Shown piece after piece: positions 21,328-24,543 of a DNA stretch of 36,779 nt. The position numbers and the translations under genes were made by a program. Position 1 is the stretch's first letter; every line of letters starts with the position of its first letter. This DNA comes from an uncultured bacterium (GTDB lineage: Bacteria; Verrucomicrobiota; Lentisphaeria; Victivallales; UBA1829), in contig CACWOL010000021.1 of NCBI GenBank assembly GCA_902762495.1, positions 1 through 36,779 on the forward strand, given 5' to 3'. The notes beneath the pieces were generated by a model that did no database searches, had not been told where the DNA came from, and was given only the letters and a program-made list of their open reading frames with translations.

Positions 21328-21687
21328 GGTTTGCGCTCCTTGGTGTTGCAGATGGAACAGAGTGATATCGAAAGCAGGAATCCGACTTGTGAATTATAAC
21401 GCGTGAAAATCTGAAAAAGTGTAAAAAAACATGTTTTTTTAAGAGAATTATCGAAAAAAATCCGTCCGAAGGAAAAAACGGTGAAAAAAACGCCGCGGGA
21501 CGGGATCGGGGCAGGGGATCAACTCTGTCGCGGGACTTCCGCAGACGTCGCTTCCGCCCGGAAAACGCGGTGCGAAAAAGTCCGGGAAAAAACGCGTTCT
21601 GAACTTGTAAATTCTGAATTATGTGCTACTTTAAAAGGATTTCATTTTTTTTAAACACATGGAACGACCCAGGAGGTTATCCCCACC
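21328..21687. other. Divergent intergenic region
   Basis: About 360 bases with no gene seen. The left part has the probable -10 of the minus-strand gene (TATAAT, 21398-21393). The middle (21420-21600) mixes A-runs and GC-rich blocks without a structure I can name. The right end has the plus-strand promoter at 21605-21632 and a strong SD, AGGAGG, about ten bases before the ATG at 21688. Confidence 0.5.
21605..21632 (+). promoter_or_regulatory. Promoter of the EIIA-CBS/permease pair
   Basis: TTGTAA (21605-21610), 16-nt spacer, TACTTT (21627-21632); leader of about 50 nt. It is weaker than the other promoters in the window. Confidence 0.5.
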
Positions 21688-22644
21688 ATGAGTGAAACGA
21701 AGAACGAGTTTTCGGATTACCTGTTTGCGAACAACATCGCCTGCGGCGTGACGGAGCCCGACGGCGCAAAAGTCATCGGCATGCTGCTGGATATGCTCAA
21801 ACGCCATTTCCCCCAGCTCAACATCGAAGAAGCCCGCGCCGAGATCGAGAAGCGCGAAAAAGTCTTCCCGTGCATCGTCGCCCCCGGCCTCGCCGTGCCG
21901 CACGCCCGTATCGCCGGGCTTGAGAAGCCGATGATCGCCATCGCGTGCAGCCCGACCGGGATCACCTACGGCGGCAAGGAAAATATGTCCACACAGGTCA
22001 TCTCCCTGAACATGAATGTGTTCATCAACGTGATGGTACTGATCCTGTCCCCGCTGGAAGACCCGAACCTTCACCTGCAGGTGATGTCCATGCTGGCGAA
22101 GTCGTTCTCCGACCCCGCGAACATCCGCCAGGTCGCCGGACTGCGGACCCCGGCGGAAGTCACCACGTTCTTTGCCACCGGCCAGATCAAGATGCCGGAA
22201 TACCTGCTCGCGAAGGACGTGATGCGCACCGATTTCACCCCGCTTCACGAGACGGACACCATCCGCGAGGCGATCGACATTTTCGCCACCACCCAGAGCG
22301 CGTCCCTGCCGGTGATCGACTCCGTGGGCGACCTGCGCGGCGTGCTGTCGCTGAAGGACATCCTGACCTACACGCTGCCGGAACACCTCCTGTGGATGGA
22401 GAACCTTTCCCCGATCTACCGCTTCCAGCCGTTCGTCGACCTGCTGAAGAGCGCCAGCGACACGCGCGTCTCCGACATCATGCAGGAGCTCGGCGAGCCG
22501 GTTTCGGAAGACGTCCCGGCGATCCAGCTGGCGAAGCTCTTCCTGGCTCAGGAGACGGCGCAGCTCATCATCACGGACGCGAACGGCCGCCTGGCCGGTC
22601 TGGTCTCCCTGCGCGAGTTCTGCGCGAAGTTCTTCTGGGAATGA
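21688..22644 (+). CDS. PTS EIIA domain fused to tandem CBS domains
   Basis: 318-residue cytoplasmic protein. Residues about 7-165 form a PTS EIIA domain of the fructose/nitrogen (PtsN) type; PGLAVPHARI carries H72, the expected phosphorylation site. Residues 174-232 and 258-316 are two CBS motifs (VMRTDFTPLHETDTIREAI...LPVID; IMQELGEPVSEDVPAIQLA...LIITD), which usually bind adenine nucleotides. No EIIB or EIIC is present, so it is more likely regulatory than sugar-transporting. It is followed after 45 bases by a permease, suggesting that it controls transport according to PTS phosphorylation and energy state. That role is inference. SD AGGAGG is strong. Domain calls are confident. Confidence 0.9.
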   Translation: MSETKNEFSDYLFANNIACGVTEPDGAKVIGMLLDMLKRHFPQLNIEEARAEIEKREKVFPCIVAPGLAVPHARIAGLEKPMIAIACSPTGITYGGKENMSTQVISLNMNVFINVMVLILSPLEDPNLHLQVMSMLAKSFSDPANIRQVAGLRTPAEVTTFFATGQIKMPEYLLAKDVMRTDFTPLHETDTIREAIDIFATTQSASLPVIDSVGDLRGVLSLKDILTYTLPEHLLWMENLSPIYRFQPFVDLLKSASDTRVSDIMQELGEPVSEDVPAIQLAKLFLAQETAQLIITDANGRLAGLVSLREFCAKFFWE

Positions 22645-22689
22645 CCGCGGCGCAACGAATACGAGATAACTAAAGAAAGGTTATAAAAC

Positions 22690-24477
22690 ATGTCGGAAGA
22701 ATCCTCCTCCATTTCCGTCAAATACTTTGTTTCGCGTTTCATGATCCTGCTGGCCGTGAGCCTGACCGTGGGCCTCGGCGGCTTCTTCTCCCACGCGCTC
22801 GAATCGCACCAGGCCGTGGCCTGCGCCGTGTTCATCGGCCTCATCATGGGCACGCTGTTCTTCTGGAAGTTCCGTCTGGCGCTGGCGTTCCTCGGCCTCG
22901 CGGTCCTGATCTTCACCGGCTCGCTGGACATCCCGCACTTCGTGCAGTCGTCCTCGCTGGAAGTGATCCTGTTCCTGGTCGGCATGATGGTGATCGTGGG
23001 CGCGCTGCGCGACCTCGGTTTCTTCACGTGGATCGTGCAGCTGATCGTGGAAATGCCGAACCTCTCCGGGATGAAGTTCATCACGGTCACGAGCGTGGCG
23101 TCCGCGCTGCTCGCCTGCGCCGTCGACGAGGTGACCTCGATCATCTTCATCTCCACCCTGATTTTCCAGGTGTGCGACCGCCTGAAACTGAACCCGACCC
23201 CGTACATCCTGATCGCCGTGCTCGCCACGAACATCGGCAGCTCCGGCACCATGATGGGCAACCCGGTCGGCATCTACATCGGCACGAAGGGCGGCCTCAC
23301 GTTCGGCGACTTCATGCTGTGGTCGTTCCCGATCATGCTCGTTTCGCTGTTCGCGGTGATCGCGCTGCTCCTCTTCATCTTCCGCAAGGACCTGAAGAAG
23401 TTCGATGAAAGCCTGCAGAGCCGCCTCGCGCAGGGGCTCTCGCTGGCTCCCCGCGTGAAAGTGCCGTACAAGCCCGGCCTGATCCTGCTGGTCTGCACCG
23501 TGTGCGCCATCGCCTCCCACCACCCGACCGAAGAGCTCCTCGGCCTGCCGAAGAACACCGTGCTGATCGTGGCGCCGCTCGTCTGCTCCGGCATCGTGAT
23601 GATCATCAAGCAGAACCGCGCCCGCTACTACATCGAACGCGAGGTCGACTGGTGGACGCTCATCTTCTTCATGCTCCTCTTCGCCGTCGCCGGCACGCTG
23701 GAATACACCGAGGTCGACAAGGTCATGGCGAGTGGATTCTCCAAGATTTGCGGCACCAGCCCCTACGAGCTCGTCCCGTTCATCTTCTTCACTTCCGCCG
23801 TCGGGTCCGCGTTCGTCGACAACGTGATCTTCGTTGCGGCGTTCTGCCCCGTGATCGAACAGCTCTCCCTGAGCGTGAAGGACTTCCCGCTGTGGTGGGC
23901 GCTCCTCTTCGGCGCATGCTTCGGCGGCAACATCACCATGATCGGCAGCACGGCGAACATCGTGGCGCTCGGCATGCTCGAGAAACGTCCGTCCGCCTCG
24001 CACGTCACCTTCATGAAATGGCTTGCGGTCGGCCTGCCCGCCACGCTGCTTTCCGGCGTGATCGTCGTCGGCACGCTCCTGCTGCTGGAACCGTCCATGG
24101 CGGACCGTCCCGCCGACCTGAACTTCGCGAAGGTCGAAAAGTCGACCGGCCGCGAATTCTGCAACAAGCTTGCTACGTTCGAAGTCGCCGGCGTCCGCGC
24201 CTACGACTTGAACAGCGCGTCCGTTCCCGCCCAGTCCCTCATTACGGGACGCACCATCGAGACCGGGATGGAACTCATGTTCGGCGGCAAGGCGCACACC
24301 CTCGCGACCGCCTACGGCAAGAACGAGGGCGAAGCCATCGCCGTAGCGGTGCCCGCGGGCTTCGAGCTGACCGATTCTCCGCTGACCCTCACCGGCTGCA
24401 TGTACAGCGTGCCCGAAACCGAGGCGAAGTACCCCGTCCTGCTCGTCGTGAAGGATGCGAAGCCCGTCAAGAAGTAA
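22690..24477 (+). CDS. SLC13/ArsB/NhaD-type permease with C-terminal soluble domain
   Basis: 595 residues. About 11-13 hydrophobic segments occupy residues 12-470, in the two-fold pattern of the ion transporter superfamily: AVDEVTSIIFIS with GSSGTMMGNPVGI in the first half and FVDNVIFVAAF with GGNITMIGSTANIV in the second. These paired Asp and Gly-Asn/Thr signatures are typical of ArsB/NhaD/SLC13 carriers that couple Na+ or H+ to an ion or dicarboxylate. About 120 residues after the last helix (475-595) form a soluble domain I do not recognise. It lies 45 bases after the EIIA-CBS gene and ends at a strong terminator. The substrate cannot be told. Confidence 0.88.
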   Translation: MSEESSSISVKYFVSRFMILLAVSLTVGLGGFFSHALESHQAVACAVFIGLIMGTLFFWKFRLALAFLGLAVLIFTGSLDIPHFVQSSSLEVILFLVGMMVIVGALRDLGFFTWIVQLIVEMPNLSGMKFITVTSVASALLACAVDEVTSIIFISTLIFQVCDRLKLNPTPYILIAVLATNIGSSGTMMGNPVGIYIGTKGGLTFGDFMLWSFPIMLVSLFAVIALLLFIFRKDLKKFDESLQSRLAQGLSLAPRVKVPYKPGLILLVCTVCAIASHHPTEELLGLPKNTVLIVAPLVCSGIVMIIKQNRARYYIEREVDWWTLIFFMLLFAVAGTLEYTEVDKVMASGFSKICGTSPYELVPFIFFTSAVGSAFVDNVIFVAAFCPVIEQLSLSVKDFPLWWALLFGACFGGNITMIGSTANIVALGMLEKRPSASHVTFMKWLAVGLPATLLSGVIVVGTLLLLEPSMADRPADLNFAKVEKSTGREFCNKLATFEVAGVRAYDLNSASVPAQSLITGRTIETGMELMFGGKAHTLATAYGKNEGEAIAVAVPAGFELTDSPLTLTGCMYSVPETEAKYPVLLVVKDAKPVKK

Positions 24478-24507
24478 GACGGAATCCATCCGATCCGCTT
24501 TTCCCGG

Positions 24508-24543
24508 AAGCCGGCGAACGCATCTTCGCCGGCTTTCTTTTTT
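24508..24543 (+). terminator. Intrinsic terminator of the EIIA-CBS/permease operon
   Basis: Perfect 11-bp stem AAGCCGGCGAA (24508-24518) / TTCGCCGGCTT (24525-24535), 6-nt loop, then TCTTTTTT. Confidence 0.92.

Follow-up and report, generated by a model that had tools for sequence, protein, structure and literature searches.

Results

A two-gene unit encoding an EIIA-CBS protein and a permease

The stretch of DNA which we analysed, referred to below as the window, is 36,779 nucleotides long and belongs to a genome of 2.76 Mb. Two open reading frames lie on its forward strand with 45 bp between them, the first (21688–22644) encoding an EIIA-CBS-CBS protein of 318 amino acids and the second (22690–24477) a permease of the CitMHS/ArsB fold of 595 amino acids, and both were found exactly where the original prediction had placed them. 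A plausible ribosome-binding site precedes each gene; on direct reading of the sequence it is AGGAGG for the EIIA-CBS gene (21671–21676, forward strand) and a purine run resembling a ribosome-binding site for the permease gene (22673–22681, forward strand). The unit is closed by a strong predicted intrinsic terminator 3' of the permease gene (24506–24543, forward strand), where folding gave a stem-loop of 13 pairs (24506–24537; -23.5 kcal/mol, z -4.65) and a U-run. Judged from the sequence, the spacing of the genes and the terminator are consistent with a two-gene operon. The closest named match is the rumen Lentisphaerae MAG RUG555, with 97% identity in the permease.

The EIIA domain and the CBS pair

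Residues 14–162 of the first protein (21727–22173, forward strand) form a PtsN-like EIIA domain, which was recognized by the Pfam model PF00359 (PTS_EIIA_2; 6.5e-13) with 49.3 bits against a curated cut-off of 27, and whose best profile matches were the PtsN/EIIANtr structures 3urr, 4gqx and 1a6j. The AlphaFold2 model of the protein has a mean pLDDT of 86.6 and resembles PtsN 3urr with a TMt of 0.84. The protein scores below the NCBIfam cut-offs for PtsN equivalogs, with 15.9 vs 138.7 bits for TIGR01419 and 14.2 vs 221 bits for PRK10896. The predicted phosphorylated histidine, H72 (codon at 21901–21903, forward strand), is present in 54/54 homologues of the alignment A4 and R56 in 53 of the 54, and at the position of H129 there is a histidine in 42 sequences and a tyrosine in 12. 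An insertion at residues 97–108 of the EIIA domain is confined to the close relatives of the window and is modelled with low confidence.

Pfam also found two CBS motifs in the same chain (6.8e-17). The original prediction of a PtsN-like EIIA domain with H72 joined to two CBS motifs is thus borne out by Pfam, and H72 occupies the position of the EIIA phospho-histidine. According to Pfam and the alignment, the first CBS motif covers residues 175–228 (22210–22371, forward strand), while domain models and the alignment place the second at about residues 258–311 (22459–22620, forward strand). The two motifs form a Bateman module, with CBSX2, AcuB and MgtE as structural matches. The ribose-binding motif S/T-x-x-D is partly conserved in the first CBS motif (S221 in 32/54 and D224 in 53/54 sequences) and is degenerate in the second, where it is not kept. 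The linker between the motifs (LPEHLLW...QPF; 22374–22440, forward strand) has six residues, L230, P231, H233, W236, L240 and P248, which are invariant in A4. Since this linker and W317 at the C-terminus show little or no variation, a surface under constraint is suggested, and the linker may be a contact surface of the protein.

Conservation of the gene pair

The original prediction had named a lack of co-occurrence in other genomes as what would speak against it; the pair proved to be kept when it was followed from either gene, and in two phyla. With the permease as bait, one genome per species was scanned and the best 80 of the 197 loci carrying a relative were used; the upstream sequence was available for 78 of them and in 71 of these 78 an EIIA-CBS gene lay directly upstream on the same strand. 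The pairs among these best 80 of 197 came from Lentisphaerota, from Kiritimatiellota (Pontiella), from a Hydrogenedentota MAG and from a MAG labelled Planctomycetota. With EIIA-CBS as bait, a permease gene was directly downstream in 78/85 cases (median intergenic distance 17 bp): in 27/30 relatives, in 37/41 distant loci across the phylum and in 14/14 loci of a second phylum, which were reached via the Hydrogenedentota locus. In every pair the two genes shared a strand and EIIA-CBS came first, and this order was unchanged even in distant partners of about 25% identity. Loci within one genus are not independent of each other; those of low identity and those from different phyla largely are. In the phylum as a whole, 291 of the 388 sampled genomes contain a match to EIIA-CBS (E 1e-20), a number which includes matches to the EIIA part only. 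Comparison of their distance matrices gave a correlation of r 0.855 between the two proteins (reached in 0 of 2000 permutations), which shows co-inheritance of the partners and not their binding. No third conserved gene was found at the best 80 of the 197 loci, where other neighbour families each occurred in at most 7/80.

There was no adjacent EIIA-CBS gene at seven permease loci and no adjacent permease gene at seven EIIA-CBS genes, so the tie between the two is not absolute. Could EIIA-CBS be co-expressed with the permease and related to it in function, yet have its target elsewhere, in transcription or in an enzyme for instance, and make no contact with the permease? The orphan genes, which have no permease beside them (L015, L016, L026, L189, L197, L199 and L201) would fit such a role. 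Against it stand the gene order, which is strictly kept with tiny gaps even at low identity, and direct fusions of EIIA with transporters in related genomes, and we regard this explanation as improbable.

Two further observations concern the neighbourhood of these genes. EIIA-CBS genes without a neighbouring permease also occur at L036:4468-5391, L037:4884-5822 and L046:3444-4433; from inspection by eye, we take the gene before two of them to be MtaB-like and the gene after one of them to be dihydrolipoamide dehydrogenase-like. In a distant subgroup of EIIA-CBS/permease loci (L187, L188, L190, L198, L199, L200, L205 and L206) an isocitrate dehydrogenase gene lies directly upstream of the pair; the icd gene was found at none of the 80 loci of the window type (best 80 of 197).

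Family and fold of the permease

Residues 60–408 of the permease match the CitMHS family (PF03600, 3.2e-58). Its AlphaFold2 model (pLDDT 86.8) has as the best solved fold match ArsB of Leptospirillum ferriphilum (10tp, TMt 0.81), followed by VcINDY and other DASS carriers. The re-entrant hairpin of the first repeat carries the motif VDEVTS (residues 145–150; 23122–23139, forward strand), which is invariant in the alignment A3 and is replaced by SAFLDNVTT in the distant partners, and the hairpin of the second repeat carries VDNV (residues 376–379; 23815–23826, forward strand), which alignment and motif reading place in the longer string VDNVIF. The crossover helices have GNPVGIYIG and GSTANIVALG, and IGDPPN is found in the distant partners. 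SAFLDNVTT and IGDPPN are typical of ArsB/OCA2-type carriers. The SNT signature of DASS/SLC13 carriers is absent from both hairpins. The permease remained below the NCBIfam cut-offs for DASS (TIGR00785, 66 vs 198.6 bits) and ArsB (PRK15445, 42.6 vs 457 bits), and the MamN model was also far under its cut-off; from these low scores we conclude that the permease represents a separate subfamily. With its ArsB-like fold and Asp-containing hairpin motifs, it groups with the ArsB/OCA2-type carriers of the IT superfamily, and the SLC13/ArsB-type assignment of the original prediction is corrected to this extent.

The prediction had left the choice between an ion and a dicarboxylate carrier, and the ion part of it agrees with our findings: the substrate is probably a small ion, moved with or against protons. 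The dicarboxylate part is less likely, as the SNT signature is missing and the fold is closest to that of ArsB. Is it nevertheless possible that the regulatory logic discussed below applies unchanged to a permease which carries a carboxylate, with the uptake of TCA intermediates tuned to the supply of PEP? Membership of the CitMHS family, the overall resemblance to the VcINDY/NaDC fold and the isocitrate dehydrogenase gene upstream of eight distant EIIA-CBS/permease loci all point in this direction. However, the DEVT/DNV and GNP/GSTAN motifs stand at the ArsB/OCA2 position, the DASS model falls well short of its cut-off and the icd gene does not accompany the pair at loci of the window type. 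We therefore consider carboxylate transport unlikely, albeit less so than an action of EIIA-CBS away from the permease.

Topology of the permease and a candidate docking loop

The extra soluble C-terminal domain noted in the original prediction is present (residues 472–595; 24103–24474, forward strand) and is modelled as a beta-rich structure with pLDDT mostly above 80, but the family as a whole does not conserve it. The mean top-residue frequency after residue 471 is 0.44 vs 0.77 in the core, and the tail is missing in 14 of the 53 complete permease homologues, 13 of which keep the EIIA-CBS gene upstream. Lysine and arginine make up 16.4% of the residues in loops assigned to the inside and 6.8% in those assigned to the outside (54 sequences), and from this charge bias, together with the count of membrane crossings in the model with its two inverted repeats, we predict that the tail lies outside the cytosol, in the periplasm. 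A domain which is poorly conserved, often absent even from paired relatives and predicted to be periplasmic is an unlikely docking site, and the proposed contact of EIIA-CBS with residues 475–595 was rejected. The cytosolic loops are better candidates, especially the one between the repeats (residues 231–261; 23380–23472, forward strand), which contains eight lysines and arginines as well as conserved positions and where EIIA-CBS may dock.

The phosphotransferase relay of the genome

The window genome encodes one EI, two HPr homologues and just two PF00359 proteins, a 163-residue PtsN-like protein and EIIA-CBS. Its EI consists of the three core EI domains and has no N-terminal GAF domain of the kind found in proteobacterial EINtr. 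EI was found in 34/36 genomes and HPr in 36/36. Two families of EII components were searched for, and PTS_EIIC was present in 0/21 genomes and mannose-family EIIA in 0/16; with EI and HPr present and neither of these two families found, the PTS looks purely regulatory. For lack of these two families, a role in a sugar PTS was rejected. In such a role EIIA-CBS would phosphorylate the solute during its uptake, for which the EIIA active-site residues are indeed intact, but Pfam detected no EIIB domain in either protein and the fold of the permease is that of an ion carrier, which makes this idea highly implausible. HPr kinase was considered as a further input and was dismissed, since HprK occurs in just 1/21 genomes and is absent from the window genome. 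A diadenylate cyclase is encoded there.

The other EIIA protein of the window genome (L212:3147-3638, G000:C37) keeps the histidine of the PHxR motif and has a tyrosine where the second histidine of the active site would be. The second HPr gene, with the site GIHCRP, lies directly upstream of trkA-trkH (L211:1560-4001, G000:C14), an order which is shared by 9/15 sampled relatives and which suggests a further link of the PTS to K+ uptake. Other genomes of this order encode single chains in which EIIA is joined to a Na_H_Exchanger domain (L136:226-1974, L140:1-1923 and L146:1480-3426) and, in one case, to a P-type cation ATPase (L135:1486-3429).

Discussion

In this work we have examined a gene pair in which a PtsN-like EIIA domain with an invariant H72, fused to a CBS pair, is encoded next to a permease of ArsB/OCA2 type. 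The conservation of the pair seen from both genes (71/78 among the best 80 of 197, and 78/85) and in two phyla, together with the EI and HPr genes, supports the original prediction of a PTS-linked regulator which is dedicated to one transporter. The explanation which we favour, and which we judge to be reasonably probable, is that the permease has its own cytosolic, PTS-phosphorylated subunit which gates transport according to the state of H72. Phosphate would pass from PEP to EI, HPr and finally H72 of EIIA-CBS in a purely regulatory PTS without transport functions. Held in place by the CBS pair, the EIIA domain would touch the cytosolic loops of the permease, whose activity would be set by the phosphorylation of H72, most likely with inhibition in the unphosphorylated state as described for PtsN and YcgO. 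A ligand of the CBS pair, either AMP/ATP or c-di-AMP, for which the genome has a cyclase gene, may provide a second input. The fusions of EIIA with ion transporters in related genomes and the HPr gene beside trkA-trkH also speak for this explanation; the partial conservation of the nucleotide motif in the CBS pair and the tyrosine in place of H129 in 12 of the 54 homologues speak against it. The retention of the pair across at least two phyla suggests an on/off control of a transporter which is so far undescribed and can be tested.

Could this pair be part of something larger? The transport-less PTS of Lentisphaerota, Kiritimatiellota and Hydrogenedentota might serve as a relay for ion homeostasis, in which EI and HPr feed EIIA modules on several ion transporters and EIIA-CBS joins the PEP status with a nucleotide signal on one permease. 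The outputs of such a relay would be EIIA-CBS with its ArsB/OCA2-type permeases, the EIIA fusions with a Na+/H+ exchanger and with a cation ATPase, and the HPr gene beside trkA-trkH. We propose this broader view only tentatively, and with clearly less confidence than the gating of the single permease. Regulatory PTS relays without sugar permeases occur in several phyla, and a conserved transporter partner would give them a concrete output which can be assayed.

Our literature search, which did not extend to subscription papers, found no description of the EIIA-CBS/permease pair, and within that literature the system may still be called undescribed, as originally predicted. Several known systems share some of its features. 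In E. coli, PtsN in its unphosphorylated state binds to the K+/H+ antiporter YcgO and inhibits it (PMC11808508). There, as we infer for our pair, an EIIA of the PtsN family directly controls a cation/proton antiporter in a phosphorylation-dependent manner. However, PtsN is a free global regulator which docks on the cytosolic C-terminal region of a CPA1 antiporter (PMC11808508), whereas here the EIIA domain is fused to a CBS pair, is encoded in a predicted operon with one permease of the IT superfamily, whose C-terminal tail is predicted to be periplasmic. The contacts of EIIANtr with TrkA and KdpD likewise place ion transport proteins under PTS control, but the targets are different and neither CBS domains nor a dedicated operon partner are involved (PMC13104625). 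In LacS an EIIA-type domain phosphorylated by HPr tunes one carrier; this carrier transports lactose, is a single chain, and has an EIIAGlc-like domain of an unrelated fold family and no CBS motifs (PMC10710835). The regulatory PTS with EI-R of Chlamydiales and Planctomycetes resembles the one discussed here in that EI and HPr occur in genomes without PTS transporters; EI-R was without functional information in the 2008 survey, and the EIIA-CBS/permease pair proposes an output (PMC2405797). In MgtE, CorC/CNNM and OpuCA a CBS pair likewise equips a transporter with a nucleotide-sensing module, but it is located within the transporter or its ATPase, while here it resides on a separate EIIA protein. 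The control of transporters by the PTS and by CBS domains is thus known separately, and what is new is that a dedicated EIIA-CBS protein accompanies an ArsB/OCA2-type permease in more than one phylum. Such an arrangement would extend EIIA control from a free PtsN with many targets to a built-in subunit which may also sense nucleotides.
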